The position numbers and the translations under genes are program-made. Shown piece after piece: positions 8,947-45,854 of a stretch of 64,000 nucleotides of DNA (the stretch's first letter is position 1; every line of letters begins with the position of its first letter). The notes beneath the pieces are model-generated. The model worked only from the letters and a program-made list of their open reading frames with translations, ran no database searches and was not told the origin of the DNA. The DNA is from Synechococcus sp. PCC 6312 (GTDB lineage: Bacteria > Cyanobacteriota > Cyanobacteriia > Thermosynechococcales > Thermosynechococcaceae), in NCBI RefSeq assembly GCF_000316685.1, contig NC_019680.1:1799501-1863500 (forward strand), given 5' to 3'.

Positions 8947-9010
8947 TAGAGACTAGACAGAAATATACCGCCTATCAGGAGGATTCAGGTGTTTAGCCTG
9001 AATGTTAAGT
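8947..9010 (-). repeat. attI-like flank, copy A
   Basis: A 64-bp sequence directly abuts the 5' boundary of the NTF2-like cassette. It aligns without gaps to 45791-45854 and 44223-44286; shared blocks include CAGAA, the TATACCGCCTA segment (also in the 44-kb copy), and GGTGTTT followed by CTGAATGT. In this copy and the 45.8-kb copy the cassette boundary lies exactly 11 nt before CAGAA. It behaves like the constant side of an integron insertion site; whether it also holds a cassette promoter is undecided. Confidence 0.65.
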
Positions 9011-9063
9011 ATCTGCCTAAGCACTCAGCAGGAAAGAAAATATAGAAAATTTCTGCCAGAGCA

Positions 9064-9270
9064 GCTAACGACTTGCTTGATATTATTGCTGGCTATCCTC
9101 TCCATTTTGGCTTCAGCACCGAAACGGGTCGTGTATTTCACCTGATGGGAGTGCGCTCAGAATTTGGCAAACTTGGGATCACTAGGGTTGGCAATTCCCT
9201 GGAAGAAGCAAAGCCTACTTATGTTCAGGCCATTCAGGTTCTCGATCAAGCCAGTGGCCTGAAATCCTAA
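9064..9270 (+). pseudogene. Partial second copy of the 3' end of the ATP-grasp gene
   Basis: From the CTAACGA preceding LLDIIAGYPLHF to the stop, the frame repeats about 65 C-terminal codons of the ligase gene (compare 8133-8330). Shared stretches include FHLMG, SEFGKLGIT and VLDQAS, and roughly three quarters of residues are identical. No N-terminal part or start context exists, so it is a fragment. The copies flank the gene cassette in direct orientation. The divergence suggests that the second end came from another strain or that the duplication is old. Confidence 0.8.
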
Positions 9271-9313
9271 TCATTGGTAAGGTTAATTTGTTCTGTGCAG
9301 GTGGGAGGAGAGT

Positions 9314-9964
9314 ATGGAGGTTAAGCTGGTATCAATCACGCAGCCGGTGGTAGAAGTTGCTGGGGAGAAATTATCAGCGGAAGGGTTAATGGCCTATTGC
9401 GCCAGGGTCTCCAGTCCCAATCAAGAAAACCCCAACTATGCTAAGCTGCTGGCCTATTGTATTCGCCACGGTCATTGGTCAGTGTTTGAGATGGTAGATA
9501 TGACCGTAGAGATTCTCACCACCCGGATGATTGCCCAGCAGATTTTGCGCCATCGGAGTTTTTCATTTCAAGAATTTAGTCTCCGCTATGCCCAGGCCCA
9601 GGGGTTTGAAACCTATCCCGCCCGCCGTCAAGATGTCAAAAATCGCCAAAACTCCATTGATGATCTGGCAGAATCCGACCAGGCCTGGTTCAAGGCCAGC
9701 CAGCAACAGGTTTGGGAAATGAATTTTGGGTTATATCAAGCCGCTCTGGAGCGGGGCATTGCCAAGGAATGCGCCCGGGCCCTGTTGCCCTTAAATACCG
9801 TGACCCGGATTTATATGAAAGGCTCCGTTCGCTCTTGGATTCACTACTTTCAGGTGCGCTGTGCCCCAGACTGTCAACAGGAACACCGGGAAATTGCCTG
9901 TGGGATTCGGGAAATTTTTCAGGCCCAATTTCCAACCGTAGCAACTGCACTGACTGAGGTTTAA
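9314..9964 (+). CDS. thyX: Flavin-dependent thymidylate synthase
   Basis: The 216-aa protein converts dUMP to dTMP using methylene-tetrahydrofolate and FAD/NADPH in the cytosol. The ThyX signature R-H-R-x(7)-S-x-R is present as [13 protein letters not shown] at 79-91, with GHWSVFEM upstream and the C-terminal [23 protein letters not shown] block giving the second nucleotide-binding arginines. The length is typical. A strong purine-rich site, GGGAGGAGAG, precedes the ATG. It is followed after ~45 bp by a RibD-C type reductase. ThyX releases tetrahydrofolate, so no classical DHFR is needed for this step. Confidence 0.95.
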
Positions 9965-10007
9965 TCTGTTTCTGCCAATTTCTATAGCCATATAATCTTA
10001 CGAAGAA

Positions 10008-10559
10008 ATGACTGAGGTGGCCTTGATTTGTCGGGTATTCATTGCGACTAGTTTGGATGGATTTATTGCCCGTTCCAATGGGGCGTTAGATTGGCTCCCC
10101 CAAACTCCAGAAGATTCACCAGATTTCACAGACTATGGCTATCAGGCCTTTATGGACAGTGTGGATGGAGTCGTGTTAGGGCGTAATACCTACGAATTGG
10201 TCAAATCCTTTCAGCCTTGGCCCTATGGTAACCGCCCCGTTGTGGTCTTAAGTCATCATTCCTGCAATGTTCCCGCAGCCCTCAGAACTACCGTAACAGT
10301 AATGGCAGCAGTACCAGAGCAAGTGGTGGATTATTTATCAAACCAAGGAATCAGAAGTGTTTATATTGACGGCGGACAAACGATTCAACAGTTCCTTAGG
10401 GCTGGCCTGATTCAGGATTTGATTATTTCCCGGATTCCGATCCTACTGGGAGAAGGGATTCCCCTGTTTGGGGCCCTGACAACCGATATCCCCCTAGTTC
10501 ATCAATACACCCGCTCCTATGACAATGGCCTGGTTCAAAGTCACTATCAGGTTGGCTGA
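10008..10559 (+). CDS. Dihydrofolate reductase-like (RibD C-terminal domain) reductase
   Basis: The 183-aa protein begins RVFIATSLDGFIARSNGALDWL, the opening of the RibD-C/DHFR fold. GVVLGRNTYELV and the NADPH-binding stretch RSVYIDGGQTIQQFLRAGL follow. Members reduce pteridine- or pyrimidine-like substrates with NADPH, and stand-alone members are often of unknown substrate. The location just downstream of thyX on the same strand hints at pterin/folate metabolism, which is inference. Alternative start codons lie within the first ten codons. Confidence 0.8.
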   Translation: MTEVALICRVFIATSLDGFIARSNGALDWLPQTPEDSPDFTDYGYQAFMDSVDGVVLGRNTYELVKSFQPWPYGNRPVVVLSHHSCNVPAALRTTVTVMAAVPEQVVDYLSNQGIRSVYIDGGQTIQQFLRAGLIQDLIISRIPILLGEGIPLFGALTTDIPLVHQYTRSYDNGLVQSHYQVG

Positions 10560-10569
10560 GTGTATCCAT

Positions 10570-11271
10570 TTAGACCGCTACCAGGGCCTGGTTTTGGGAG
10601 AGTTGGCCATCCTCCATGTGAACAATCCGATCCGCAAGATCTAAAATCCGGTTGTCATGGGTGACTAGTAAAATCGTGCAGCCCTGTTCTTGGGCCAGTT
10701 TTTGCATCAGGTTGACCACATCCCGCCCAGAGTGGCTATCCAACGCCGCAGTGGGTTCATCGGCTAAGAGAATTTGGGGACGGCTGACTAAGGCGCGAGC
10801 AATGGCCACCCGCTGTTTTTGCCCCCCAGATAGGTCTTTGGGATAGTAGGCAAGGCGTTCTCCCAGGCCCACTTCGGTCAAAATATCACGGGCTCTGAGA
10901 TTCCACTCGGCTTTGGGATATTGCCCATGAACTTCCAACCCCATGCGGACATTTTGCAACGCGGTTAAACTGCCGTGGAGATTATGGGCCTGGAAAATAT
11001 AGCCATTACGTCGCCGGGCTGTGACTAATTCCAGGGGAGATGCACCACAGAGTTCTTGGCCTTGAACCTTTAAGCTCCCAACCTGAGCCGCCCGTAACCC
11101 ACCAATCAACGAGAGTAATGTGGTTTTACCGGAGCCAGACGGGCCAGTCATAATCACAATTTCCCCCGCCTGAATCTCCAAGTTGATGTTGGCTAGGACT
11201 TGTTTGCGCAGTTCCCCCTGACCAAAGGCGTGACTCAGTCCCTGAATTGAAATCGCTGGTAATGATGCCAT
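10570..11271 (-). CDS. devA: DevA-type ABC exporter ATPase
   Basis: The roughly 233-aa protein has Walker A (GPSGSGKTT), the Q-loop region (GYIFQAHNLHG), the ABC signature LSGGQKQRVAIARAL, Walker B ILLADEP and the switch histidine (LVTHD). It is the nucleotide-binding subunit of a DevBCA (MacB/LolD-like) exporter. ATG at 11271 is chosen because a GGGGG run lies just upstream; a TTG five codons earlier is possible. It is the last gene of devB-devC-devA. In heterocyst formers DevBCA exports glycolipids with TolC; here the substrate is unknown. Confidence 0.88.
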   Translation of the reverse strand: MASLPAISIQGLSHAFGQGELRKQVLANINLEIQAGEIVIMTGPSGSGKTTLLSLIGGLRAAQVGSLKVQGQELCGASPLELVTARRRNGYIFQAHNLHGSLTALQNVRMGLEVHGQYPKAEWNLRARDILTEVGLGERLAYYPKDLSGGQKQRVAIARALVSRPQILLADEPTAALDSHSGRDVVNLMQKLAQEQGCTILLVTHDNRILDLADRIVHMEDGQLSQNQALVAV

Positions 11272-11308
11272 CAAACTATCCCCCAAATTTCAATTGCATT
11301 TGTTTGCC

Positions 11309-12484
11309 TTAAAAGCTATCAGCCGGGTCAGCCTGTTGCAGTTTGCGGGTGGCTATTATTCCCGAAATTCCACACATACCCAAGGTGACGAGAAACACCA
11401 AAATACTGCGGCCGAGGGTCATGGCAATGGGGAGGCTGGTGGCATTACGAGTCAAAACATACAGGCCCAGAGAAACCCCCAGGCCCGGTATAAACCCCAG
11501 GGCGGCCATAATAATGGCTTCTTCAAAGACAATCCCAAGTAAATAACGATCTCGATAGCCCATAGCTTTGAAGGTGGCATATTCTCCCAAATGAGCATTG
11601 ACATCTGTGGAAAGGACTTGATAGACAATTACGACCCCGACGATAAAGCCCATCACGGTTCCCAGGCCAAAGACAAAGCCAATGGCGGTATTGCGCGTCC
11701 AATAGTCTTTTTCAAATTGAATAAATTCCGCTCTGGTCAAAACCCGCACATCTTCCGGCAATGTGGCTCGTAGGGTTGTGGCCACCTGTTCGGCATCGGC
11801 TCCGGGCTGGAGGCTAATTAATCCGGCACTGACAGCCGTGGCCTGGCGGCGGGGAAACAGTCTTAAAAAACTCTGATCACTCGTAATTAATGTGCCATCC
11901 GTGGCAAAGGACGCGCCAATGGTAAAGGTTTGGCTGAGACGAATTGTGTGGCGTTCAATTTCCGTGGTGACGATCTGGCCCTGCTGGAGTTGGGCGATCA
12001 CGTCTTGATAGTCGCCACGGGAGGCCTGATCAAACAAGTAGTAATCGGGTAGTTTCAGATCATTGAGATGGTTGGCAACTTCTGGGAGAGCTAAGGCCGA
12101 GCGTTCCGGGCTAAAGCCAACAATCAAAATTGCTGTTTTTTGACGGGTTTGGGGGTTACGCCAATCACTGAAGTTCGTATAAAGAGCTTGGGCTGTGGCC
12201 ACGCCAGGAACATTCATGGCCTGGTAGAGTCGCCGCCGGGGAATGGTGGATAAGTTAACCAAGTTGCGGGCCTGGGGGCTAATCAGGACAAGATCTGCGT
12301 TGATGTTTTGGTGAAAGCGGGTATTACTTTCGTAGAGAGCATTCTGAAACCCCAATTGCATAAACATCAAAACATCGGCAAAGGCAATCCCCGCCAAGGC
12401 CACCAAAAAACGACCTTTTTCATGACTCAGTTGCAACCAGCCCAAGGGAGTCCGATTTTTGAGACTGTCTAACCCGGCCTTCAT
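11309..12484 (-). CDS. devC: DevC-type ABC exporter permease
   Basis: The 391-aa protein has one N-terminal membrane helix (about 28-48) and a large extracytoplasmic domain. Three C-terminal helices follow around 270-380 (IGFVFGLGTVMGFIVGVVIVYQVL and following). This is the MacB/FtsX-like topology of DevC. It overlaps the end of devB by four bases (ATGA-type overlap), so the two are translationally linked, and devA follows after ~37 bp. Together with the membrane-fusion protein it forms a trans-envelope exporter. Confidence 0.88.
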   Translation of the reverse strand: MKAGLDSLKNRTPLGWLQLSHEKGRFLVALAGIAFADVLMFMQLGFQNALYESNTRFHQNINADLVLISPQARNLVNLSTIPRRRLYQAMNVPGVATAQALYTNFSDWRNPQTRQKTAILIVGFSPERSALALPEVANHLNDLKLPDYYLFDQASRGDYQDVIAQLQQGQIVTTEIERHTIRLSQTFTIGASFATDGTLITSDQSFLRLFPRRQATAVSAGLISLQPGADAEQVATTLRATLPEDVRVLTRAEFIQFEKDYWTRNTAIGFVFGLGTVMGFIVGVVIVYQVLSTDVNAHLGEYATFKAMGYRDRYLLGIVFEEAIIMAALGFIPGLGVSLGLYVLTRNATSLPIAMTLGRSILVFLVTLGMCGISGIIATRKLQQADPADSF

Positions 12485-13662
12485 GGCATGATCACCACCT
12501 TGACTTGAAGATTGGTATAGCGGGCGGCTTTTTGACTCGAGGCGGGGTCGAGTTTAATCCGGACTTCGACAATGCGGGCATCGGTGTTGGCGGCGGGGTC
12601 GGTGTTGATCACGTTTTGACGGAGGACTTGATACCCGACTTGCTCGACTGTTCCCGCCAATGTCCCCGTCAGAGCTTCACTGCTGATGGTGGCCCCCAGG
12701 CCGGGGTGAAGATGCTTGACATCACTTTCATAGACTTCTGCCACGGCATACATCTGTTGGGTTTGTCCCAGGGAAATAATCCCCTCATTGCCGGGTCGTT
12801 CCCCAGGCCAGGTGTGGATTTTGAGCACTTGTCCAGCTTGGGGAGCCCGAACTTGGGCCAGGGCAAAATTGGCCGTAGCTTCCTTGAGATTGGCCTGGGC
12901 GGCTTGGACTTCGGCCTGGGCAACTTGGATATCCACGGGGCGGACTTCGGCAATCTGGTCAAGGGTGGCTTGGGCCTGTTGGATTTGGTTTTGGCGACTG
13001 GCCTGGGCCCGGCGGAGATTGGATTGGGCTTCTTGGAGGCGTTCTTGGGCCGTATCTCGGGTTAAGCGTTTGCTGTCCAGGAGCGAGGTGGAAATGGCCC
13101 CCTCCCTGGCTAAGGCCCGATGGCGTTGATATTCAATCTCGGCATTGTTGACTTCGGCCTGGAGGCGGCTGACGGTGGCCCTGAGGGCTTGGATATCCCC
13201 TTGGGCTTCGGCGGTAATTTGGGCAATGGTGGCCTGTTGGGCTTTAATTTCTCCCTGTTTAGCTCCGGCTCGGACTTTAGCTAAGTTGGCCTGGGCGACC
13301 TGCACCTGTTTTTGGGCCTGGAGTTGAGCCGCTTGCAACCGAGAGTAACTATCCAAGGTGGCAATTACATCCCCCGCCTTGACCCAATCGCCTTCTTGCA
13401 CCAACAATTCCTCAACTCTTGTCCCCTCGGTTTGGGTTGGGGCGGCCACTTCAATGACTTGGGTTTGGGGTTCAATGCGCCCTAGGGCCGTAATCGTCTC
13501 AGTCACGGGGGCAATAGCCACCTCCTGGGGACGGGATGCGGATTGGGTTTGAGCCATTGTCCAGGCCAGGGAACCGCCAACAACCAGGGTGGCAGATGTA
13601 ATCAAAATGGCAAGAGAGCGGGGGGAGACCTGGGGATATCTTGCGCGGCTGGCTTGGGACAT
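12481..13662 (-). CDS. devB: DevB-type membrane fusion protein (HlyD family)
   Basis: The 393-aa protein has an N-terminal signal-anchor helix (about 15-35), a lipoyl-like half motif (GRIEPQTQVIEVAAPTQTEG) and a long alanine/glutamine-rich coiled coil from ~105 to 260. The second lipoyl/beta-barrel region (VRAPQAGQVLKIHT) follows. It is the periplasmic adaptor linking DevCA to a TolC-like outer channel. The start ATG lies ~15 bp from the first of two palindromic operators, and a TetR gene is divergent, so the operon is probably repressed by that regulator. Confidence 0.88.
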   Translation of the reverse strand: MSQASRARYPQVSPRSLAILITSATLVVGGSLAWTMAQTQSASRPQEVAIAPVTETITALGRIEPQTQVIEVAAPTQTEGTRVEELLVQEGDWVKAGDVIATLDSYSRLQAAQLQAQKQVQVAQANLAKVRAGAKQGEIKAQQATIAQITAEAQGDIQALRATVSRLQAEVNNAEIEYQRHRALAREGAISTSLLDSKRLTRDTAQERLQEAQSNLRRAQASRQNQIQQAQATLDQIAEVRPVDIQVAQAEVQAAQANLKEATANFALAQVRAPQAGQVLKIHTWPGERPGNEGIISLGQTQQMYAVAEVYESDVKHLHPGLGATISSEALTGTLAGTVEQVGYQVLRQNVINTDPAANTDARIVEVRIKLDPASSQKAARYTNLQVKVVIMP

Positions 13663-13676
13663 GGGCTAAACCCCGA

Positions 13677-13691
13677 ACTAAACGGTATAGT
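13677..13691. promoter_or_regulatory. TetR-type operator, copy 1
   Basis: The 15-bp element ACTAAACGGTATAGT is one mismatch from the perfect inverted repeat at 13707-13721. It lies 15 bp upstream of the devB start. Its centre is 30 bp from the centre of the second copy, close to three helical turns, which suits side-by-side dimers on one DNA face. Confidence 0.7.
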
Positions 13692-13706
13692 TTTCTCACT
13701 AAATAG

Positions 13707-13721
13707 ACTATACGGTATAGT
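13707..13721. promoter_or_regulatory. TetR-type operator, copy 2 (perfect palindrome)
   Basis: ACTATACGGTATAGT is a perfect 7+1+7 inverted repeat in the gap between devB and the divergent TetR-family gene. Size and symmetry fit operators of TetR proteins. It could control both promoters. Binding by the neighbouring regulator is inferred from proximity. Confidence 0.75.
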
Positions 13722-13819
13722 TTAGTTAGTCAAGTATTTCTGCGATTTCCGATTAGCCCTGCAGCCGAGGAGAGCGATAGGATATTTATAGTTAAAAAAT
13801 ATTTTTAGGAACCGGCTCC

Positions 13820-14440
13820 ATGACTCCATCTCCGGCCAGTGATAAAGCCGAACAAATCTTGACTGGGGCAATGCAGGCATTTTTGGCTCAGGGTTATGCG
13901 GGCACCAGTATGGATCGAGTGGCCGCCGCGGCGGGGGTCTCAAAGGCGACGGTCTATAGTCACTTTCAAGATAAAGAACGGCTATTCCAGGCCTTGGTGC
14001 GGCGGATGGCCAAACGAAAATTTAGTGAAGTTTTTACGGATATGGATGATCCCAGGCTGGAGGGGGATCCACTGGTGGTTTTTCCGGCGATGGGGCGAAC
14101 AATCATGGCCCGGATGTTAGTGGATTCCGAACATTTAGACTTTATGCGAATGGTAATTGGCGAGTCCGGGCGTTTTCCGCAACTGGCCAAGGCCTGTATC
14201 CAAAACCTGACGAAATATTCCCTCGAGTTTTTAACTCAATATATTGCCGCCCATCCAGAATTCGGTGTGCCTGACCCGGAAGCAACGGCCCGGATTGTCC
14301 TGGGTGCAATGGTCTTTTTTGTTCTCAGCCAGAAGGCGATGCACGGGGAAGAGATTATTCCCATGGATGAAGAGCGAATGATTAATGCTACAGCATTTCT
14401 GTTATTTCGAGACCAGCAGACAGCCACCACCAATACATAG
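13820..14440 (+). CDS. TetR/AcrR-family transcriptional repressor
   Basis: The 206-aa protein has an N-terminal TetR DNA-binding domain: ILTGAMQAFLAQGYAGTS, then the helix-turn-helix VAAAAGVSKATVYSHFQDKERLF at about residues 33-55. A helical ligand-binding/dimerisation domain with an AefR-like C-terminus follows. It is transcribed away from devBCA, and twin 15-bp palindromes occupy the shared gap, so autoregulation plus control of the exporter is likely. The inducing ligand is unknown. The ATG after AGGAACCGGCTCC is used. Confidence 0.88.
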   Translation: MTPSPASDKAEQILTGAMQAFLAQGYAGTSMDRVAAAAGVSKATVYSHFQDKERLFQALVRRMAKRKFSEVFTDMDDPRLEGDPLVVFPAMGRTIMARMLVDSEHLDFMRMVIGESGRFPQLAKACIQNLTKYSLEFLTQYIAAHPEFGVPDPEATARIVLGAMVFFVLSQKAMHGEEIIPMDEERMINATAFLLFRDQQTATTNT

Positions 14441-14458
14441 AACGGCTGACCCTAAGGC

Positions 14459-15169
14459 TTACTCCGGCTGACAGGTTTTGTACCACTGCAAATGGTAGAA
14501 GAGGGGTAGGGCCAGGGTATCCCAGAAAGGCGGTTGAATGTTGGCCTCGGCGAGGGCTTTGGCCGTCCAAGAATTACAGGTGTTCCAGGCCGAATAATGT
14601 CCCGTAGCGGCATAGAAACTACTTTGGGCTTGGCGACTGGGATTAAGGCGGATGGGTCGGTCTTGGGCATCCCGTTCAAAACTGGCCAGCAAAAACTCGG
14701 TCAGGGCCTGGTAGTCCCGTTCGTTAATTCGGAGGGGAATCAGAAAGGTTGCCAAGGGGGCCTGGGGAAGTTGTGGAAAACCCTGGACATGGAGAGTTGC
14801 GGGACTCCGGCCATGAAATAAGGCTCGCCAGGCCTGGTCAGCGGGAATATCCTCAATCCGGGTCAAGTTCCGGTAGAGTTCCCGTTCGCCCCAACCAAAC
14901 CCCAAATATTCAAGATCTGTCCGGGGATTTTCCCCCAGTTGCCCCAATTCCAAATAGTTACGCCAGTTGTTTGTGGGCGTGGTGACGGGCACTAGGATAT
15001 TGGTATGAACATAGTCCCCATAAACATAAATGGTGATTGAGCTAGTGGGGTCTGCCGCTGGGGGGGATGGATTGAACTGTCCCAAGAGCATTGAACAGGG
15101 TGGCACCAGGCCCAATCCTAAGCTCAACAACCCCAAGCCAATTTTTTCTGGCCAATCTTCAAATCCCAT
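14459..15169 (-). CDS. DUF2459 (TIGR02117-type) protein
   Basis: The start is taken at the ATG giving MGFEDWPEKIG, which overlaps the malQ end by 11 bp; an upstream start would reach far into malQ. About 236 aa. An N-terminal hydrophobic segment (IGLGLLSLGLGLVPPCSMLL) suggests a membrane anchor, possibly a lipoprotein with the Cys after VPP. The family motifs YVYGDYVHTNILVP, GFGWGERELYRN and TCNSWTAKALAEA, with a conserved Cys, are present. The biochemical role of this family is unknown. It is probably cotranscribed with malQ. Confidence 0.8.
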   Translation of the reverse strand: MGFEDWPEKIGLGLLSLGLGLVPPCSMLLGQFNPSPPAADPTSSITIYVYGDYVHTNILVPVTTPTNNWRNYLELGQLGENPRTDLEYLGFGWGERELYRNLTRIEDIPADQAWRALFHGRSPATLHVQGFPQLPQAPLATFLIPLRINERDYQALTEFLLASFERDAQDRPIRLNPSRQAQSSFYAATGHYSAWNTCNSWTAKALAEANIQPPFWDTLALPLFYHLQWYKTCQPE

Positions 15170-16784: not shown

Positions 16785-16849
16785 TTTTTAATCTCTCTGG
16801 GAAATAGGTGCAGTTAAGCAGTCGTTCGGGAGCCTCCCCCAAGGGTAAT

Positions 16850-17941: not shown

Positions 17942-17980
17942 GTGGGCATAAAAACTGGCCAGGATTGGCCTTTATTGACG

Positions 17981-25637: not shown

Positions 25638-27803
25638 TTAATCTCGCCCACCAAAGAGCCAATTGATATTGATACCCACAGACTTGCCATCTTGAGCAAT
25701 GAATCCCCCCACAGGCATACTCTGGCCAGCGGCATTACTCCCGTAAATATCAATACTGAAATTAGTTCTGGGAATGGTATAGCGAATCCCGCCACTAAAT
25801 ACCGAACGTTGCCCAGTCAAAATTGGGGTTGCTTCAGCAATCAGCTGCAGGCCTGGGAAAACCTCAAAATTGGCCCCAAATCCTAGCCCAACGGGGACTT
25901 GATGATCACCCATGAGCGCGACTTTGGGATTAAAGAATAGGGCCAAAGAATCAATCGGGCGATAATTCATCGGAAGTTGCAGGGTAGCAATAGAAATTTG
26001 CCCACTGACGGCACGGTTAAAGGAGCCTTGAAAACCAATGGAGAAGGGATCGCCCTGGCTTTGATCGAGGAAGCGTATTTTTGCCGCCAGGCCAAAGTTG
26101 GTTTGATTGCTATAGTTGACCCCAGGCAAAAGACTAACTCCATCCTCTGGTTTCTCAACAAACAATTCAAACTGGGTATCGTAGGTTAAGCCAACCGCCA
26201 CACTGCCGCCATTGCCAACTCCGCCAAAGTTTCCATGCAAGCGCATCATTTCCGGTAAGAGCGTATCAGCGGTAACTAGGGTAATCCCATTCAGCAACAA
26301 TTGCCGATCCCGTTCGGTCAGGGGAACCCGGGGCCGGTCACGAAAACTAGGCAGGAAATTCTGACCAAACTCAGGCGTGTAGGTTAAACCAGTGCCAAAG
26401 GAAACACTAGCCCCATCGGGGGGAAAGGCAATGGTTCGCAGGGTTGGCGTTGTCCCAAAGGCATTGGTGGCATAGAGATCCACCCCAACCGCTGGATTGA
26501 CGAGAAAGCGAAAACCACCACTCCAGACCGGGGTGATAAATAACTGACCATTGGCGGCATTGATGGCATTTTGCCCAGGCCCAAAGGGAACCGTAACATC
26601 CCCAAACACGCTCACCTGCTGATTAAACTTCCAGCTAAAGCCTGTCCCAAGGTTAAAATTCGTCCCATAGAAGGGCTGCCCCCCGGTGAAGGTACTGGGC
26701 AAAAAGGTAATGCTGGGGGTCAAATGCCACTGAAAATGCCCATCATCATCAAATGTCCAAGTTAAGGGCGATTGAATCGAACCCACAATCATGCTGTCTT
26801 TAGTTGTTCCCAGGCCTGGGGCAAAGACAAAATTACTTGAGCTAAATTGCAGGTACTCAATCGAGCCGCCCACCGACCAAGCCAGGTTATCCCCCTTAAA
26901 CACTTGGTATTTGAAGTTTGGCGCAATAGTCACGACTGTGATTTCGGGATTTTGTCCTTTGATGAAGCGGTAAATTGGATCGTCATAGAAATTAGCGGTT
27001 AGCCCCAATTGCCACCGATCCGTTACCCCCCCATCCACGGAGCCATAAAAGACCTCCAGTCCATTACCCGGATCCAAGTCGGGATTGGTGGTGTAGGTAA
27101 ATAGCCCCCCAGTAAACTGAATTGTCCCCGCGGGCAGGTGGTTGGCGGTATCCAGGTTGAAAAGTCGGATTGGCGGGAGCATTAGGGGAGTAGGCGTAAA
27201 TTCAGGAGTCAACTCAGCGGGTATGGGTTCAGGATTATCTGGCGTGTCGGCATTCTGAGTCACGGCGTTGGGGCGAATACTGGTGGCATCCTCCTCCAAT
27301 AACGAAGAGGCATTACGATTACTGCCGGTCTGGTCGGTGGTTAAAAGCCCATTTTGACTGGTCACCGGAGTGGGCGGATTAGAGGGAGTTGGCTGGCTAG
27401 GTTGGGGAGAGTTGGGGGTTATGGTCTGGCTTCCGCCAGGAGTTTGTGCCTCAACAATTGGTGTATTGATCAACAGGCCATTTCGACTGATGACCGGCGT
27501 TGGCGGGTTAGTTCGGGAAGAACTAGGGCTTAAATTCTGGCTCCCAGTTTGTGTCTCAACAACCGGGGCTTTGATCAACAGACCATTTCGACTGATGACT
27601 GGCGTTGGCGGGTTAGGTTGGGGAGAACTGGGGCTTAAATTCTGGCTTCCAGCAGGAGTTTGTGTCTCAATAACCGGGGGATTGCCTTGGGGTTGCTCAG
27701 GTTTAGGCAGATCAGATGCAGTTTCTGGTGGTATGGGCAGAGCATAGGTAGACGTCCCCAGGCCCCACCACATTAGTCCCGTTGCCCATAATAATTTTTT
27801 CAT
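25638..27803 (-). CDS. Predicted outer-membrane beta-barrel protein with Pro/Ser-rich repeats
   Basis: The 721-aa protein has a signal peptide (MKKLLWATGLMWWGLGTSTYA). A low-complexity N-terminal stretch to ~210 follows, containing tandem 35-residue repeats (NPPTPVISRNGLLI and similar). The remainder is rich in alternating strands and aromatic girdles (FTGGLFTYTT, FGTGLTYTPEFG, FSGGIRYTIPRTNFSIDIYG) and ends in FG-GRD. It resembles cyanobacterial porin-like or transport barrels, but no family is certain. Its gene follows a glycosyltransferase by 18 bp. Confidence 0.7.
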   Translation of the reverse strand: MKKLLWATGLMWWGLGTSTYALPIPPETASDLPKPEQPQGNPPVIETQTPAGSQNLSPSSPQPNPPTPVISRNGLLIKAPVVETQTGSQNLSPSSSRTNPPTPVISRNGLLINTPIVEAQTPGGSQTITPNSPQPSQPTPSNPPTPVTSQNGLLTTDQTGSNRNASSLLEEDATSIRPNAVTQNADTPDNPEPIPAELTPEFTPTPLMLPPIRLFNLDTANHLPAGTIQFTGGLFTYTTNPDLDPGNGLEVFYGSVDGGVTDRWQLGLTANFYDDPIYRFIKGQNPEITVVTIAPNFKYQVFKGDNLAWSVGGSIEYLQFSSSNFVFAPGLGTTKDSMIVGSIQSPLTWTFDDDGHFQWHLTPSITFLPSTFTGGQPFYGTNFNLGTGFSWKFNQQVSVFGDVTVPFGPGQNAINAANGQLFITPVWSGGFRFLVNPAVGVDLYATNAFGTTPTLRTIAFPPDGASVSFGTGLTYTPEFGQNFLPSFRDRPRVPLTERDRQLLLNGITLVTADTLLPEMMRLHGNFGGVGNGGSVAVGLTYDTQFELFVEKPEDGVSLLPGVNYSNQTNFGLAAKIRFLDQSQGDPFSIGFQGSFNRAVSGQISIATLQLPMNYRPIDSLALFFNPKVALMGDHQVPVGLGFGANFEVFPGLQLIAEATPILTGQRSVFSGGIRYTIPRTNFSIDIYGSNAAGQSMPVGGFIAQDGKSVGININWLFGGRD
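27365..27675. repeat. In-frame tandem repeats, ~105 bp units
   Basis: Within the barrel-protein gene, the unit beginning GATCAACAG at 27468 recurs at 27573, 105 bp later, with high identity. Flanking units carry small in-frame indels. The encoded unit is about 35 residues (NPPTPVISRNGLL followed by VETQT-x-GSQNLSPSS). Copy number could vary between strains by slippage. Confidence 0.75.
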
Positions 27804-37756: not shown

Positions 37757-38482
37757 ATGCTGCTAAACCTTGCCGATATTCTCCTTTTAATCCACCCAAT
37801 TTTGGCCTGTACCTTTATCTTTCCGGTGATTGGCATCGTGGGCTATCTGGCCTGGCAAACTCGACAACGGCGGCTCTCTGCTCCGGGGGAAGCTAAGGGG
37901 AAAATTTCACCCCAAGTCGGCCGGGAGCATGTGGCCATTGGTAACCTGTTGGCGGCGGGAGTGGTCGGGATTACCCTAGTTGCTTTGGCCTATGGAGTCG
38001 TCTTTGGCTATCAAGGATTTTTGGATCAGGCCAAGGATGGCAAACTCAGAACCGTGCAAGTTGGGTTTGTGGTTGTGATGTTTATTCTGACCCTTGTTTC
38101 CTTGGGAATTTTGATGAGAACTCGGGCCAAGCTTTGGCGGGGAGTTTTTGCCACCTTAACGGGGTTGGGAATCGGGGTTTTAGGTTGGCAGCCGGGGATT
38201 TTTCATCGCAATGATGAGTGGTACATCTCCCATTACTATTTTGGCATTGTCGCCAGTTGGTTGATGATCTTTGCTGCGGCCATTGTTCAGGATATTTACC
38301 AGAGTAAGAAATGGCGGCGAGTGCATATCATCTTGAACTCCCTGGCCCTGATTTTGTTTATTCTCCAAGGGGTGACTGGGACGCGGGATTTATTGGAACT
38401 TCCCCTGAGTTGGCAAGAATCTGTCGTTTATAGCTGTAACTTTGATTCCAAATCCCCAGAGTTTAAGACCTGTCCTAAGTAG
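37757..38482 (+). CDS. DUF4079 membrane protein
   Basis: The 241-aa protein has about six membrane helices (LADILLLIHPILACTFIFPVIGIVGYLAW; VAIGNLLAAGVVGITLVALAYGVVF; and others), with histidines near helix ends (LLIHP, HVAIGN, SHYYFG) that suggest a cytochrome b561-like haem-binding arrangement. The DUF4079 family is widespread in cyanobacteria and plastids; its function is unclear. It follows a ~200-bp gap after the divergent psb32. Confidence 0.85.
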   Translation: MLLNLADILLLIHPILACTFIFPVIGIVGYLAWQTRQRRLSAPGEAKGKISPQVGREHVAIGNLLAAGVVGITLVALAYGVVFGYQGFLDQAKDGKLRTVQVGFVVVMFILTLVSLGILMRTRAKLWRGVFATLTGLGIGVLGWQPGIFHRNDEWYISHYYFGIVASWLMIFAAAIVQDIYQSKKWRRVHIILNSLALILFILQGVTGTRDLLELPLSWQESVVYSCNFDSKSPEFKTCPK

Positions 38483-38579
38483 TCCCTGCCGAAAAACTCA
38501 GGCCAGGCCAGCGTTAGTCTCCCAGTGGTGCGGCGGAATGAATTAAGGTGGCAGATGAGCCTTTTGGGTAGCTGACCGG

Positions 38580-39698: not shown

Positions 39699-39719
39699 TT
39701 TTATCTGCTTAGGATCATC

Positions 39720-41483
39720 TCAGTTACTCAGATTTTGGGGCGGCTTAAAAAATATCCCAATCCCATTGGCTACTCGCGTCGTTGTCACCGAATGCCGATC
39801 AATTAACCGGCCGCCGAGATAGAGATTAGTAGAACTGCCGCCGTCTAAGTTCAGGGCCTGGGTTGCGCCGAGTTGTAAGAGAATTGCGGCCCATTCCGGT
39901 AAAGTTGGCCCAGATCCGCCTAAACGATTGTGGGTGGTGACTAAACGAATCTTGCCATCGGGCATTTGGATAATGGCACTCCGGGGGGCAGACTGAGCAT
40001 CCAGGCCCCGGCCAAATTGTTCAATCGCCGCATCGAGGACAATTTTTCCACCATCAATCAACAGTGGCCCCGCGCCAAGAATGTTGGGAAACGCATCAAA
40101 GTCACTGGGGAGAGGTGTTGTTTGTAGTTCTACAGTTTGGCCTGGGGTTAAGGTCTCTGGAAGCGGGCCTGTGCCGCGCCAAACCAACAAGTAACCATCG
40201 GTGGGAATGACCCAGGCCTGGCCGCCGGCCACTTGGCGATTGCTAATTTGCTTATTTTGCACTGTGAAAATGGTTTCATTACTGGTTTGGGCAGAATAGC
40301 GCGGCCCCCAAGCGGGAGTATAAAGAGCCAGGCCTGGTTGTAAGAAGCCACTATTCAGGTCAGTAACATTCACCTTTGCCCCTGTGGCTGTTGTTAGGGT
40401 CTGTCGTAAAGCCAAGCGTCCGACTTTGATTTGCCCCTGCTCTGTCCAGCCAATCGCCCCCCGATTCAAAATAGGCCCCGAAATCCATTGTCCCTGACTC
40501 CGGATCGCCCCCAAAGGCATTTGCTTATCTCGGTTAAAAAATCCGCCATTGATCGCCCCGGCCACCTGCCAGCGTTGGGCCAATTCCGGCAAGGGTTGGA
40601 TACCGATTAGGGTATTAGGACTCGGCCAAATCGGGCGCAAACTCAGGTTGGGTTGCTTGGGATCAAGGATCAGAGAATTTAGCGGAAACTGCCCACTGCG
40701 AAGAGAAATAGTTTCTTCCTGCCAGGCCAGACCGGGGGCCCACTGAATCGTGCGTGGCGGCGGGGGATCATTGCGAAAGTCCACCACAATCCGGGGCGGA
40801 TTCACCAGCATCGAAACTTGGGGGCGGGTAGTTCCAGACAGTGAGGTTTCCCAGATTGTGCGGGTTGGGGCGGTGGTGACTTTGATGTTGGGGATTGGTT
40901 CTGAGGCGACTTGGCTAGCTTCCACAGTAAGGGCAAATTCCCTGGGGGTCAGGCCAGTGCGACTGTTGGTGAGCCGACTAATCTGCCAAGGGGTGGGCCG
41001 ACTGACATCAATCACCCAGCGAGTTCCCCAAGGTTGTTGTCCCTGGCGAAATCCCAAAACCTGGGCGGGTGGGGTTTTAATTTGCAGCGTATCCCCTTGG
41101 GGTTGGACTTGCCAGGCCTGTTGTTGAGCAATCGCCGAAATGTCTAGATAACGGAACATCCCATTCGGACTCCAGCGGACAGTCAGGGCCTGGGAACTGC
41201 CGTTAAACCATTCCACAGGTTGGACTTGGGGGTTGCTCGTGCTGAGGAGGTTAAACCCAAAGCGATTGGCCAGGCCAGCATCACTAATTCCGAAGGTCGG
41301 CTGTCCCTGAGGATTAACCCCTTGACTCCAGGCCATGACATATTCCCGACCGTTGAGATTGACCTTTGTCCCTTCTGTGGGTGGACTTAACTGCGCCGTT
41401 GCTAATCCTGCCGCCAAACCCAAACCCAGGCCAAGGGAAACAGCTACGGGAACATAACCAGGCCAAGGGGTTTTCGTGAACAT
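39720..41483 (-). CDS. Secreted phosphodiester glycosidase-family protein (NAGPA/DUF2233)
   Basis: The 587-aa protein has a signal peptide (VAVSLGLGLGLAAGLATA), an N-terminal region resembling AMIN/copper-amine-oxidase-like modules, and a C-terminal NAGPA domain. In the latter AINGGFFNRDKQMPLGAI, NILGAGPLLIDGG, RSAIIQMPDGKIRLVTTHN and ALNLDGGSSTNLYLGG are typical. The family cleaves phosphodiester-linked sugars in cell-wall or exopolysaccharide metabolism. It probably acts in the periplasm or at the surface. Confidence 0.85.
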   Translation of the reverse strand: MFTKTPWPGYVPVAVSLGLGLGLAAGLATAQLSPPTEGTKVNLNGREYVMAWSQGVNPQGQPTFGISDAGLANRFGFNLLSTSNPQVQPVEWFNGSSQALTVRWSPNGMFRYLDISAIAQQQAWQVQPQGDTLQIKTPPAQVLGFRQGQQPWGTRWVIDVSRPTPWQISRLTNSRTGLTPREFALTVEASQVASEPIPNIKVTTAPTRTIWETSLSGTTRPQVSMLVNPPRIVVDFRNDPPPPRTIQWAPGLAWQEETISLRSGQFPLNSLILDPKQPNLSLRPIWPSPNTLIGIQPLPELAQRWQVAGAINGGFFNRDKQMPLGAIRSQGQWISGPILNRGAIGWTEQGQIKVGRLALRQTLTTATGAKVNVTDLNSGFLQPGLALYTPAWGPRYSAQTSNETIFTVQNKQISNRQVAGGQAWVIPTDGYLLVWRGTGPLPETLTPGQTVELQTTPLPSDFDAFPNILGAGPLLIDGGKIVLDAAIEQFGRGLDAQSAPRSAIIQMPDGKIRLVTTHNRLGGSGPTLPEWAAILLQLGATQALNLDGGSSTNLYLGGRLIDRHSVTTTRVANGIGIFFKPPQNLSN

Positions 41484-41606
41484 AGGGAATCTCTAACGGT
41501 CTTTTTGCATCTTAACTGAACGATGATCGAGGGTCTGTCAAGCGTGTAATATTTAAGTCCTAGCCGTCATACCTAAGCCCAACCCGTTATCTAGGAATTT
41601 TGCCCT

Positions 41607-43436
41607 ATGCGTCTCTCCCAGATGCTCTTTGTCACCTTGCGCGAAAGCCCTGCTGAGGCCGAAATTCCCAGTCATAAATTGCTCTTACGGGCGGGATATA
41701 TTCGCCGGGTGGGGAGTGGGGTCTATGTTTATCTACCCTTGCTCTGGCGAGTTTTACAAAAAATTAGTGCCATTGTCCGCGAGGAAATGAATGCTACGGG
41801 GGCCACGGAATGTTTACTGCCCCAAATTCAACCGGCTGAACTGTGGCAAGAATCGGGCCGCTGGGATACCTACACCAAAGCTGAGGGGATTATGTTTGCC
41901 CTGACGGATCGGCAAGGTCGGCAACTGGGCCTGGGGCCAACCCATGAAGAAGTGATTACGGCCGTGGCCCGGGACATGATTCGCTCTTACCGTCAGTTAC
42001 CGTTACATCTCTATCAAATTCAGTCCAAATTCCGGGATGAAATTCGGCCGCGGTTTGGCTTGATGCGGGGCCGGGAATTCATCATGAAAGATGGCTATTC
42101 GTTCCATGCCGACACCAACAGTCTCAAAGCCACCTACCAGGATATGTACCAGGCCTACACGAATATTTTGAGCCGCTGTGGGTTGACGTTTCGAGCAGTG
42201 GAAGCGGATTCTGGGGCGATTGGCGGGGCCGGTTCCCATGAGTTTATGGTCTTAGCTGATGCCGGGGAAGATGAAGTTCTCTATACCGCTGATGGGAATT
42301 ATGCGGCCAATGTGGAAAAAGCGATTTCCCGGCCCACGGCTGCAATTCCGTCAACGTTCACCACCTATGAAGAACGCCCAACTCCCGGAACAGACACGAT
42401 TGAAAAACTGGCGACCGTTGCGAACTGTGACCCGAGCCAAATTGTCAAAAATGTCCTCTACGAAGCCAGCTTAGATAATGGGTTTACCTTGTTGGTGTTG
42501 GTCAGTATTCGGGGCGACCAGGCCATCAATGAAGTTAAACTGCAAAACGCCTTAACCAACCTTGCACCCGAGTATGGCGGTAAAGCCGTGTTATCCCTGA
42601 CGGTTCCTGATGCCAATGCTCAACAACGCTGGGCCAAACAACCCTTACCTTTGGGTTATCTCAGTCCCGGCCTGGCGGATACATGGATTAAACCACCCAA
42701 ACCGGCCTCCACTGATGATGAGGGGCCTGTAGAAATCATCCTGCCAAAGTTTGTGCGCTTGGTGGATCAAACAGCAGTTGACCTGAAAAACTTTGTCACC
42801 GGAGCCGATCAACCGGGAGTTCATGGTTTTGGGGCCAACTGGAACGTTCAATATCCCTTACCCAAAACCGTTGTTGATGTTCGCAAGGCCCAGTCCGGGG
42901 ATTTAGCGGTTCATGATCCGAGCCAAACGTTAGAAACTGCCCGCGGCATTGAAATTGGGCATATTTTCCAACTGGGGACGAAATATTCTCAAGCTCTCGG
43001 GGCTACCTATACCTCGGAGTCCGGTGAAGAAATTCCCTTGGTTATGGGCTGTTATGGCATAGGAGTGTCGCGCTTGGCCCAGGCCGCGGTGGAGCAATCC
43101 TACGATAAAGATGGGATTATTTGGCCCCTGGCGATTGCCCCCTATCAGGCGATTGTGGTCATTCCCAATATTACTGATGCCAAACAAGTGGAAGTGGCGA
43201 CCCAACTCTATGAGCAACTCAATGAAGCTGGAATTGAAACCCTTTTGGATGATCGGGATGAACGGGCCGGGGTCAAGTTCAAAGATGCAGACTTAATTGG
43301 GATTCCCTTTCGGATTGTTACCGGCCGGGCTTTGGCGCAGGGCAAGGTAGAAGTCGTTAAACGGGCCACCAAAGAGTCTGAGGAAATTGCGATTGAAACG
43401 GTGGTTGAAACTCTCGGGGCCTGGTGCAAGGGATAA
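41607..43436 (+). CDS. proS: Prolyl-tRNA synthetase
   Basis: The 609-aa class II synthetase is of the bacterial type, with the editing (INS) domain between motifs 2 and 3. Motif 2 is [26 protein letters not shown]. The insert contains [18 protein letters not shown], and motif 3 is [18 protein letters not shown]. The C-terminal anticodon-binding domain ([24 protein letters not shown], then [18 protein letters not shown]) is complete. It charges tRNA-Pro. Confidence 0.97.
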
Positions 43437-43468
43437 ATCAGACAACTAGGCAAGTTATGGGGGCCAAT

Positions 43469-43588
43469 TTACCCATAAGATAACCAGGCCTGTAGGTCTG
43501 CCCCATCTTGAAACTCGAGTAAAGCCTCACCTAAATTCTCTAACTGAGCCAATATCAATTCTGCTACTTGCCCAGATAGCGTGGTTGG
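43469..43588 (-). pseudogene. Third, shortest copy of the Rpn/DUF4351 gene 3' end
   Basis: Minus-strand codons read PTTLSGQVAELILAQLENLG, then EALLEFQDGADLQAWLSYG and a stop. This is the C-terminal DUF4351 tail also present at 44411-44674 and at the end of the intact gene at 45963. The fragment is fused in frame to the 3' end of the upstream 181-aa gene: its TGA stop stands where the homologues have a leucine codon after K-x-GD. Confidence 0.8.
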
Positions 43589-44134
43589 TCAATCTCCCCT
43601 TTTTGACCTCATAACTAATTCATCTTGTTGTCGAATTCTAATTTTGATTGACCAAATTATTTCTCCTGCCAATTTTTCTGCTTCTTGAAGTTCACTAAAA
43701 GCACTACTCATATCTTTTCTATACTCATCAAATACATTATTTCCAACACCTATCCGCTTCCTAGTAAATTCGCTAAATTTTTCATTCAATTCCTGGTCAT
43801 CCAATGCTTTAATTCGAGCAGATACTGTTGACATGTCTAGAATATGTTTTTTTATTTCCGAATCTTCTTTTTTGCCTTCAAATCCTTGTATATAGACAAA
43901 AGTCATCAACTTCAATTCAGAGTCAAGAAATGTTAATATTGGCTCTATGATATTCTTTTTCTCAAATTCCCAGCTCCAGTCAAGTTTACGATGACGAACT
44001 TGAGCATTGATTTCAAATCTTTTAACAAAAATATTTGTTAATTGTGTAACAAATACACCAAATAGTGTCCCTCCAGCCCCTAATAATGCTCCGAACAAAG
44101 CTGGATTTTTATCAAGAAACTCTATTTGGATCAT
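43589..44134 (-). CDS. Orphan 181-aa membrane-associated protein, unknown
   Basis: The N-terminus has a membrane helix (ALFGALLGAGGTLFGVFVTQ) followed by a helical, charged cytoplasmic part (WSWEFEKKNIIEPILTFLDSELKLM; FSELQEAEKLAGEIIWSIKIRIR). The last residues, KRGD, belong to the Rpn-derived sequence, so the natural C-terminus may have been lost. The gene is AT-rich, lacks CCAGGCC motifs and lies downstream of attI-like copy B in the same orientation as the two cassette genes. No attC was found after it. Confidence 0.65.
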   Translation of the reverse strand: MIQIEFLDKNPALFGALLGAGGTLFGVFVTQLTNIFVKRFEINAQVRHRKLDWSWEFEKKNIIEPILTFLDSELKLMTFVYIQGFEGKKEDSEIKKHILDMSTVSARIKALDDQELNEKFSEFTRKRIGVGNNVFDEYRKDMSSAFSELQEAEKLAGEIIWSIKIRIRQQDELVMRSKRGD

Positions 44135-44222
44135 GCGTTAACTCAATTCATCAGTTTTGAATCTATGATACTGAATTTGAGCATGAGTTTAGTATTTATC
44201 TAAGAGGACTAGAGTCTAAATT

Positions 44223-44286
44223 AAGTATTAAACAGAAGTATACCGCCTAAAAGTACTATTAAGGTGCTTCAACTGAGTGTCAAGTT
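44223..44286 (-). repeat. attI-like flank, copy B (no cassette)
   Basis: The sequence aligns gap-free with copies A and C. At the equivalent insertion point it reads GAGTCTAAAT on the plus strand instead of a cassette core ending AAC. On the far side, the 13-mer ATTTATCTAAGAG (44195-44207) is also found beyond the SDR cassette (44772-44784). Copy B therefore looks like an unoccupied or decayed insertion site. Confidence 0.6.
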
Positions 44287-44327
44287 CTTGCTCGATTCTC
44301 TCTGAAAGAAAAGTTTAATTTATTTAG

Positions 44328-44421
44328 ATGGGTATCCATGCAAAGTTGAGTTTTTAGGTTTTGCTCTGTTCACAAATCATCTCTGTTTACTATCAATAGC
44401 TTGCGGCTAACTAGGCCTGGA
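44328..44421. repeat. Direct repeat downstream of the Rpn gene, copy 1
   Basis: The block containing TATCCATGCAAAGTT, TTTGCTCTGTTCA and ATCATCTCTGTTTACTATCA is repeated at 45897-45990 in the same orientation. With the adjoining Rpn 3' end and attI-like flank it forms a segmental duplication of about 300 bp. Confidence 0.85.
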
Positions 44422-44674
44422 GTTCTGAAACATCTTGAAACTCGAGTAAAGCCTCACCTAAATTCTCTAATTGAGCCAATGGCAATTCTGCTACTTGCCT
44501 AGATAGCGTGGTTGGTAAATCACCCAACTTGCGCTGTAATTGCCGAAATACGAGAGAAAAAGCTTCCTGTTTTAACCCTTCTTGCCGTCCCTCCTCCAGG
44601 CCCTCGGCTTTGACCTCTTGATAAAAACGGCTCTTTTGTAGTTCTGAGGCTGTGAACCCTAACATCTCTGCCAC
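44411..44674 (-). pseudogene. Truncated Rpn/DUF4351 gene, C-terminal part
   Basis: The frame starts MAEMLGFTASELQKSRFYQE and ends LGEALLEFQDVSELQA, matching only the last ~95 residues of the intact gene at 45963-46817; the nuclease domain is missing. The stop is premature: the tryptophan codon TGG after QA is TAG here, and codons LAASY followed by the old stop continue beyond it. It is a remnant of duplication. Confidence 0.82.
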
Positions 44675-44815
44675 CTCCTATCAACTCTTTATCTTGTAAG
44701 CACTCGCATCACACATCCTTGCATTGCCCAACTTCCAAGCAATCGCAGAGATTAGTTCCATCTGACTAAAAATTTATCTAAGAGTTGACAGAACCGCCAC
44801 TACAAAGGGGCGATA

Positions 44816-44900
44816 ATATAACGGTTGCAATCACCGGACGCATATAGCTTCTGCTAGAATCAGCACGCTTCAAAGTTCCGGTGCATTGCAGTTGTTGGGC
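44816..44900 (-). repeat. attC recombination site of the SDR cassette
   Basis: On the minus strand R'' is GCCCAAC (44900-44894) and R' is GTTATAT (44822-44816). The arms TGCAATGCACCGGAAC and GTCCGGTGATTGCA pair as TGCAAT-CACCGGA with one unpaired G in the L'' arm, at the same place as in the 8.4-kb attC. The loop is ~35 nt. The total of 85 bp and the position after the SDR gene are typical of attC. R' departs from GTTRRRY at one position. Confidence 0.82.
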
Positions 44901-45790
44901 TGCTTGTTGGTTCACTTTTGGCTGCGTGTCGGGCTTCATATGCAAAAGGAGCAGACAGCGAAGTCAGTATTTTTGCGCGGTTGGCCGCACCACAATTTCG
45001 TTCACGTCCACGTCGGCGGGTTGCTCCACAGCATAGGCGATGGCGCGTGCAATGGCTTCGGCAGGAATTAGGTCAATGCGAAACTGCTCTATTACGGTCT
45101 TTTTCATTTCAGAGTCTGAAATTGTATTGGGCAGTTCCGATTCGGTCGCTCCTGGGGCTATTATTGTCACCCGGATGGTGTTGCCCATTTCCTGCCTCAG
45201 ACCTTCTGATACCACACGCACGGCGTGCTTCGTAGCGCTATAAATCGTGGATGTAGGGCCGACCCACCTGTCGGCGATCGATGTAATGTTGACAAAATGA
45301 CCAGAGTTCTGGGCTTTGAAAACCGGCAACGCCGCCGCAATGCCATACAACACGCCTTTCAAGTTTACGTCAATCATTCTGTCCCATTCTTCTACCTTCA
45401 ATTGTTCAAGCAAAGAGAGCGGCATCAAGCCCGCATTGCTCACCAGCACGTCAACACGCCCGAATTGTACTTGTGCAAACTGGATAAATTTTTCCAGTTG
45501 TTCTTTTTGCGTAACATCCAAAGAGGTGAAGCAAACTTCTCCTCCGGCGGACTGAATTTCGTCTGCGATGGTCTTTAAATTTTCGATGCGCCGAGCGCCT
45601 AAGACGACTTTGGAGCCTTTGGTCGCCAAAAAACGTGCGGCAGCTTCACCAATTCCACTGCTGGCACCGGTAATAGCGATGACCTTTCCTGCGAGTCCTT
45701 CCTGTTGTGACGTGGTAAGTATATTCATAGATTACATCTTAACAAATTGTGATTTCCAGCCACAGAAACGCCGCGCTCAAACAGTCCAAC
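44823..45790 (-). mobile_element. Single integron-like gene cassette (SDR gene plus attC)
   Basis: The 5' boundary on the minus strand is GTTGGAC (45790-45784), complementary to the attC R'' GCCCAAC at six of seven positions, as expected for one cassette after circularisation. The segment holds only the short-chain dehydrogenase gene, and attI-like copy C abuts its 5' end. About 33 nt between the attC end and the shared 13-mer ATTTATCTAAGAG may be a remnant of another cassette. Confidence 0.78.
44964..45728 (-). CDS. Short-chain dehydrogenase/reductase carried by the cassette
   Basis: The 254-aa classical SDR has the NAD(P)-binding TGASSGIGEAAARFLA, the VSNAG motif, and the catalytic Ser (NITSI), Tyr and Lys in YSATKHA. 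The C-terminal VNEIVVRPTAQ is typical of YdfG/clavaldehyde-type oxidoreductases. R-R after GA (GARRIE) suggests NADP(H) preference. The substrate is unknown. It lacks CCAGGCC motifs and is bounded by cassette core sites, so it is imported. The start is the first ATG, 61 bp inside the cassette. Confidence 0.9.
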   Translation of the reverse strand: MNILTTSQQEGLAGKVIAITGASSGIGEAAARFLATKGSKVVLGARRIENLKTIADEIQSAGGEVCFTSLDVTQKEQLEKFIQFAQVQFGRVDVLVSNAGLMPLSLLEQLKVEEWDRMIDVNLKGVLYGIAAALPVFKAQNSGHFVNITSIADRWVGPTSTIYSATKHAVRVVSEGLRQEMGNTIRVTIIAPGATESELPNTISDSEMKKTVIEQFRIDLIPAEAIARAIAYAVEQPADVDVNEIVVRPTAQKY

Positions 45791-45854
45791 TATGAATTAG
45801 ACAGAAAGTTTCAGTCTAAAAGAACTATTAAGGTGTTTAGGCTGAATGTCAAGT
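45791..45854 (-). repeat. attI-like flank, copy C
   Basis: The 64-bp flank abuts the 5' boundary of the SDR cassette. Shared blocks with copies A and B are CAGAA, CTATTAAGGTG (also in B) and CTGAATGTCAAGT (near-identical in A). The 11-nt distance between cassette core and CAGAA equals that of copy A. Read toward the gene, it contains a TTGACA box and an A/T-rich segment that could act as a promoter. Confidence 0.65.

Follow-up and report, generated by a model that had tools for sequence, protein, structure and literature searches.

In integrons the recombination site attI sits upstream of the divergent integrase gene intI, and the attC sites of the gene cassettes have inverse cores and a bulged base. 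Integrons typically carry one attI near the integrase, according to part of PMC9024848; in the same source, as excerpted, IntegronFinder 2.0 by default calls a cluster of attC sites lacking an integrase (CALIN) from at least two attC, leaves CALINs with a single attC unreported and does not detect attI outside class 1, a group of sites that is poorly described. The presence of intI in Cyanobacteria has long been known, also with more than one intI per genome (excerpt of PMC2426708), and a cyanobacterial attC model already exists (excerpt of PMC8352920). CALINs distant from intI and insertion at attG are discussed in portions of PMC12444791, and recombination of attI with attI-like secondary sites in portions of PMC10127599. 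Searches of an open-access library yielded no publication on multiplied attI in the absence of intI. Here we describe such a set of attI-type sites in Synechococcus sp. PCC 6312, starting from a stretch of 64,000 nucleotides of the contig NC_019680.1 (positions 1,799,501 to 1,863,500, forward strand; hereafter the window, numbered from its first letter), in which a 64-bp segment is repeated beside cassette genes.

The set shares with a sedentary chromosomal integron the attI-type site with a GTTRRRY core, the cassettes with attC and their common orientation, and relatives hold the complete platform of intI and attI; it differs in that no intI was found, that about 14 attI-type sites stand at about ten places, and that usually one or two cassettes follow each attI where cassettes are seen. 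CALINs likewise consist of cassettes without intI, whereas the loci described here each come with an attI of their own and in most cases with one attC, and each window cassette stays below the number of two attC used for CALINs. Single cassettes at scattered chromosomal places are also the mark of attG insertion, but attG is neither attC nor attI (excerpt of PMC12444791), and the target here is a conserved repeat homologous to attI. In the delta-attI-type cassettes of mobile integrons attI sequence is also joined to cassettes, the attI parts being unusual recombination sites of the cassettes (excerpt of PMC12901181); unlike these, the attI described here lies upstream of the gene and at many chromosomal places.

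Taken together, the best explanation, to which we give a probability of roughly 0.8, is that the 64-bp segments correspond to the cassette-proximal end of an integron attI site, as judged from sequence comparison, and that integron platforms multiplied, intI decayed, and attI with one or few cassettes remained, reachable in trans as long as any IntI existed.

Genome-wide copies of the attI-type site

The genome of PCC 6312 was searched as two contigs (3.72 Mb) with three models: R1, a sequence-only model from five copies of this genome; R2, a covariance model of nine attC of this genome; and R3, built from 10 attI ends of relatives with no sequence from PCC 6312. For each model 150 candidate stretches were scored (out of 440 for R1, 207 for R2 and 511 for R3), and therefore further sites may exist. 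R1 identified at least 14 attI-type copies, which correspond to about ten chromosomal places because some of them cluster locally (three at 829-834 kb, two at 1843-1845 kb and two at 2291-2292 kb). A total of 11 full copies were detected at E 2.3e-11 or better; the five source copies among them reach 5e-24 to 3e-21 by construction, and the six outside the model gave 4e-20 to 2.3e-11, far beyond chance. Three partial copies with E between 7e-6 and 1e-3 were also counted, at 2292621, 939205 and 1607380 (27.5, 22.6 and 20.8 bits, respectively). Excluded from the 14 are two R1 matches with E 0.08, at 1511984 and 1607260, and a third that falls on the opposite strand of the site at 834746.

The core position was set by eye in every copy; on this basis the core was an exact GTTRRRY in 10 of the 14 and degenerate in the other four (GTTATAT, GCTAGGC, TTTAGAC and GTTTTTA). 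Mean pairwise identity was 0.60 over the 26 nt before the core and 0.73 in the core, and it fell to 0.27, about background, after the core. Based on this drop, the copies stop at the point expected for cassette joining by an integron integrase. The initial annotation of the window had considered that its proposal would fail if the repeat belonged to an ordinary transposon end or a conserved RNA gene. No such support was obtained, since the attI-type sites gave no match in Rfam or in collections of phages and plasmids; transposon ends were not searched specifically.

Similarity to the attI of integron platforms in relatives

Among the 10 attI ends used for R3, four lie beside intI, two beside intI with stop codons and four beside intI fragments. 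The scan of the whole genome with R3 gave 18 matches at E<=10, and 17 of these coincide with one of the 14 sites or are no more than 25 bp away from one. Eleven matches have the expected orientation and hit 11 different sites of the 14 (E 6.5e-4 to 2.7; seven at E<=0.022). Five more are on the opposite strand of the same palindromic sites, one is shifted 25 bp upstream from a site, and one is elsewhere. Since R3 was derived from attI ends of relatives beside intI or its remnants, its matches to the 64-bp segments show their homology to attI. The multiplied and scattered attI-like target, as proposed in the initial annotation, is thus upheld by a model made from relatives alone, by the end of similarity at the core and by the cassettes with attC behind nine of the 14 copies. 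The lone off-site match (G000:C1:2213039-2213079, 13.4 bits, E 0.34), which is not among the 14, may be a further degenerate attI.

The model R1, when applied to relatives, matched five of 20 intI loci, upstream of intI and weakly (best E 0.0019); eight of the ten matches at these loci were in the canonical orientation and two were on the opposite strand of one site.

State of intI and attI within the family

The relatives, all draft assemblies, differ in the state of the platform. An intI above the cut-off was found in 6 of 29 family genomes, and in several the platform is present in more than one copy. The sequence from intI to the first cassette is often a row of imperfect dyads TTAGRCGG...CCGYCTAA that ends in ...ATA-GTTRRRY. 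At the 20 intI loci of relatives, R2 detected attC in the right orientation at two (L022, E 3e-7; L023, E 3e-5); the match at L019 (E 0.11) was not significant.

In addition, 11 attI without adjoining intI were detected across six relatives (G014, G012, G010, G009, G003 and G013). Using its own intI-adjacent attI as query, two such sites were found in G014, both followed by attC unseen in the training of R2 (E 5e-16 and 1.6e-7) and each with a second attC further on. These two have about 330 bp in common, including the intI-attI spacer, and their match to the intact platform extends 12-24 bp into intI. In G012, also searched with its own attI, five more copies are located away from its intI matches. 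A single attI without intI is carried by G010 (contig C462), G009 (C316), G003 (C165) and G013 (C407), and attC follows in consistent orientation in three of them: G003 (E 3e-15), G009 (E 5e-6) and G010, where the match is weak (E 0.009-0.017); no attC was found in the 0.6 kb visible behind the G013 site. A weak site on another contig of G010 (C58, locus L113, E 0.005) was not counted. An intermediate picture is given by G011, in which four platforms carry intI cut to 5' fragments (the match runs from residue 1 to between residues 35 and 111). On the cassette side the G011 copies cease to resemble one another at the core, and on the intI side the point at which similarity is lost varies; among five copies of G011 and G010, mean pairwise identity was 0.89 before the core, 0.79 in the core and 0.30 after it.

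Absence of a detectable integrase gene in PCC 6312

The search of the whole genome with TIGR02249 gave nothing above the cut-off, the best score being 22 bits on the small, 23-kb contig. A relative's IntI as query (E<=10) matched this locus alone, over 65 residues of another tyrosine recombinase. In the surroundings of the 14 sites, a profile of ten family IntI gave no convincing match (best E 0.66), and the same run detected the truncated IntI at four G011 loci outside the profile. Two candidate remnants of intI, at L068 (tblastn E 0.033) and L072 (E 0.009), were unsupported by the ten-IntI profile (no match and E 0.66, respectively) and were rejected. A complete integron, with intI adjoining attI, was thus not found in PCC 6312, and the plasmid assay with the native integrase, as suggested in the initial annotation, loses its enzyme. 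Because no intI is left, the attI set of this genome is probably a fossil, or dependent on a helper, awaiting an imported integrase.

Cassette genes and attC sites behind attI

The genes behind attI were examined at 12 of the 14 sites, the short open reading frame (ORF) at 1607380 being left out. They encode SnoaL-like, short-chain dehydrogenase, alpha/beta hydrolase, L-PSP (RidA-type), DUF6119, type II DNA methylase and DUF2283 proteins; at five of the 12 sites the proteins had no Pfam match, and at 2292621 an ORF of at least 50 aa is absent before the attC. The gene for the type II DNA methylase follows its attI copy immediately (L068:5201-6184), and the next ORF, which overlaps it, may be the restriction partner. 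At another site, a second cassette behind attI encodes a Thoeris-like TIR protein of the ThsB type (L071:4080-4574).

For the analysis of attC, nine sites behind attI copies were picked, with their ends chosen by eye. A hand-made attC scanner recovered just two of them at its threshold (L073 and L074), and the covariance model R2 was used instead. The arms of the nine sites covary, with a score of 0.402 as compared with 0.124 in shuffles, none of 500 shuffles reaching the observed value and slid versions of the alignment giving 0.05 to 0.11. The fold energies of the four sites folded were unexceptional (z about -1 to -1.6). In its own-genome scan R2 detected 22 sites at E<=1 and 17 at E<=0.01. 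For 9 of the 14 attI, an attC at the latter level follows on the same strand at a distance of up to 2.5 kb, these nine being the training sites, as compared with none of the 14 on the opposite strand and 0.5% of random positions. The initial annotation had asked whether each copy is followed by GTTRRRY, a gene and an attC: an exact core was found at 10 of 14 and an attC at nine. Copies without cassettes had been named as an outcome that would speak against its proposal, and this could apply to the five copies without a detected attC.

Apart from the attI-linked cassettes, five attC hits make up a CALIN-like array at about 1906-1910 kb of G000:C1 (L100:3555-7229), in which no attI could be recognised; among its genes are those of a TetR regulator and of a Hypoth_Ymh protein. 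A second CALIN-like array, with three weak attC hits, is located at about 722-725 kb of G000:C1 (L101:3476-6177), and a cassette gene therein encodes a 513-aa reverse transcriptase-domain protein (Pfam RVT_1).

The three sites in the window

The 64-bp segment is partly palindromic. Its copies 1 (8947-9010) and 3 (45791-45854) align without gaps, as described in the initial annotation, with 47 of 64 positions identical, and the order of AAC, 11 nt and CAGAA is present in both. The position of copy 2 had been given as 44223-44286, off by one, at which 15 of 64 positions agree with copy 1 and 19 with copy 3; at 44222-44285 the agreement is 46 and 49 of 64, respectively. Elsewhere in the window, ungapped comparison with copy 1 gives at most 32 identical positions of 64. 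The sense strand of all three sites is the minus strand, on which the GTTRRRY cores of copies 1 and 3 open a cassette.

The first site, w1 (8937-9020, minus strand), reads ...TCTAGTCTCTA-GTTAGAC, with the core at 8940-8946. Its score by R1 was 77.9 bits as a source copy, and it was also matched by R3 (12.4 bits, 8942-8976), in which no sequence of this genome is included. The cassette behind it is composed of a gene for a SnoaL-like protein of 135 aa (8447-8854, minus; Pfam SnoaL, E 3e-16) and a putative attC, GTCTAAC ... GTTAAGC (8346-8434, minus), as recognized from its fold, its covariation and R2 (67.9 bits, as a member of the training set).

The site w3 (45782-45863, minus; core GTTGGAC at 45784-45790; 85.7 bits by R1, source copy) gave the best R3 match genome-wide, 21.9 bits. 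It reads ...TCTAATTCATA-GTTGGAC or, in the longer form, ...AACTTGACATTCAGCCTAAACACCTTAATAGTTCTTTTAGACTGAAACTTTCTGTCTAATTCATA-GTTGGAC followed by the gene, the other copies being variants thereof. The gene for a short-chain dehydrogenase of 254 aa (44964-45728, minus; Pfam adh_short, E 3e-52) is followed by a putative attC, GCCCAAC ... GTTATAT (44816-44900, minus), likewise recognized from fold, covariation and R2 (training set). The complementary strand of this attC forms a long hairpin with one single bulged base, the clearest of the attC folds.

The site w2 (44214-44294, minus; 77.0 bits by R1, source copy) carries the damaged core TTTAGAC and was not matched by R3 in the scans of the window and the whole genome. 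The initial annotation had regarded this copy as free of a cassette, but a gene for a protein of 181 aa without a Pfam match (43589-44134, minus) follows it directly; what stands is that R2 detected no attC behind this gene and that the core is damaged.

Two other features of the window were noted: tandem 105-nt repeats (88%) at 27385-27684, within an ORF of 721 aa without a Pfam match (25638-27803), and a match to the Rfam family Plastid-psbN 5' UTR at 63445-63505, just above the gathering score. This match and a Pseudanabaena relative of one protein of the window both point to a cyanobacterium.

Origin of the dispersed attI-type sites

The proposed history starts with the multiplication of platforms consisting of intI and attI. 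Each attI would then have taken up one or few cassettes at the core by IntI-catalysed attI x attC recombination, and intI would afterwards have been lost or shortened at many of the copies, or at all, with attI and the adjoining cassette being kept. A single surviving IntI could have served every attI copy in trans. The initial annotation had suggested a dedicated way of distributing single cassettes; multiplication of the platform followed by loss of intI is at least as likely, because relatives carry intI-attI platforms in multiple copies and with intI at different stages of loss.

Several observations weigh against this history. The R1 matches at the attI of relatives and many R3 matches in PCC 6312 are individually weak, R3 misses three of the 14 sites, and its training set includes the four sites beside intI fragments and the two beside intI with stop codons. 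Five of the 14 attI lack a recognised attC, and the count of nine with attC is partly circular because those nine are the R2 training set. Of the 17 attC at E<=0.01, eight are not within 2.5 kb behind any attI (four belong to the 1906-1910 kb array, one lies at 725 kb and the other three stand singly), and therefore attI was not the sole route of entry. Among the 11 solitary attI of relatives, which were held out from R2, attC was detected behind just six, one of them weak, and behind one of the five in G012; the intI side visible at the 11 ranges from 0.12 kb (contig C53 of G012, at a contig end) to several kb. In addition, the order of events, with the platform first and the loss of intI later, rests on relatives, because the attI of PCC 6312 keep no convincing trace of intI.

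Direct repeats around the sites bear on one alternative. Module 1 stands between two direct repeats of the 3' end of an ATP-grasp gene: the end of the ORF at 6804-8330 (8134-8323, plus) and, on the attI side, a second copy (9065-9254, plus; 79%). In all 11 relatives compared, from 26 loci fetched, the ATP-grasp ortholog is closer to the attC-side copy, and the attI-side copy is therefore the drifted one. The third-position bias between the repeats was considered as a sign of foreign origin and was rejected, as the attI-side copy is the one that has drifted, which would fit duplication as well as transfer. Upstream of w3 lies a gene with DUF2887 and DUF4351 (Pfam; 45963-46817, minus), and the stretch of w3 plus the 3' end of this gene (45788-46043, minus) is repeated with 77% identity at 44219-44473 (minus), which is composed of a second DUF4351 3' end and w2. 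A third DUF4351 3' end without attI (43481-43598, minus) is 90% identical to 44408-44525. Two loci with relatives of the DUF2887/DUF4351 protein (50% and 34% identity) were uninformative for the sites. Part of the upstream stretch of w2 and w3 (query bases 121-171) recurs at L004:1501-1551, L008:1501-1546 and L009:1501-1546; since R1 found no attI at these recurrences, the stretch may be a separate interspersed repeat.

Altogether, the three window sites, the two at 2291-2292 kb and the three at 829-834 kb are flanked or adjoined by direct repeats (84-256 bp) that have diverged, and attI itself is part of some of these repeats; this suggests homologous recombination at least locally. Incoming or duplicated DNA composed of flank, attI and cassette could have recombined at the shared flank to leave local copies between direct repeats, and the excess of third codon positions among the differences between the repeats of site 1 (25 of 40) can be read in the same direction. 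This route accounts for neighbours but not for unlinked sites that share just about 60-170 bp, and it leaves the sharp end at the core unexplained; as the explanation of the whole set we consider it unlikely, with an appreciable chance still to its credit.

It is also conceivable, and somewhat more doubtful, that attI travels together with the cassette. A circle of part of attI, gene and attC would be released and inserted at a loose, attG-like site, and release between an upstream dyad core of attI and attC would directly yield units of attI, one cassette and attC. This agrees with the reading of attI as a row of core-like dyads, with two of the five solitary copies in G012 (L129 and L131), whose upstream similarity starts close to a GTCTAA block resembling a core, and with the delta-attI-type cassettes that recombine with IntI1, as reported in part of PMC12901181. 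A cut inside attI, however, would not carry the spacer and the 12-24 bp of intI retained in G014; in another G012 copy (L132) the upstream sequence retained is longer by about 45 bp, the G011 copies retain intI fragments, and the upstream ends in PCC 6312 are not at one clean core, with related copies sharing further sequence.

That the loci are ordinary CALINs, cassette arrays without intI in which attI is uninvolved, is very improbable: CALIN-like arrays do exist in this genome, as described above for L100 and L101, but both window cassettes have one attC each and the repeated element upstream is homologous to intI-adjacent attI. An unrelated dispersed repeat, such as a small transposon, a REP-type element or an RNA, beside which cassettes landed by chance, would fit the repetition and partial palindromy of the 64-bp segment, but it is hardly tenable given its detection by the attI model from relatives, the like sequence upstream of intI in relatives, the lack of an Rfam match and the end of similarity at the IntI core.

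Implications for integron biology in the family

The intact, truncated and absent intI among relatives make the order of events testable. The retention of many attI past the loss of intI would mean that single dispersed cassettes are easily missed and that capture by integrons can be spread across the chromosome instead of being confined to one array. We suggest tentatively, at somewhat less than even odds, that gene capture is distributed in these genomes, with many scattered attI per genome each holding one or few genes in a neighbourhood of its own and being served in trans by one or few IntI or by an integrase from outside. In that case attI would be a dispersible module, and attI x attI recombination between the copies would also rearrange the chromosome.

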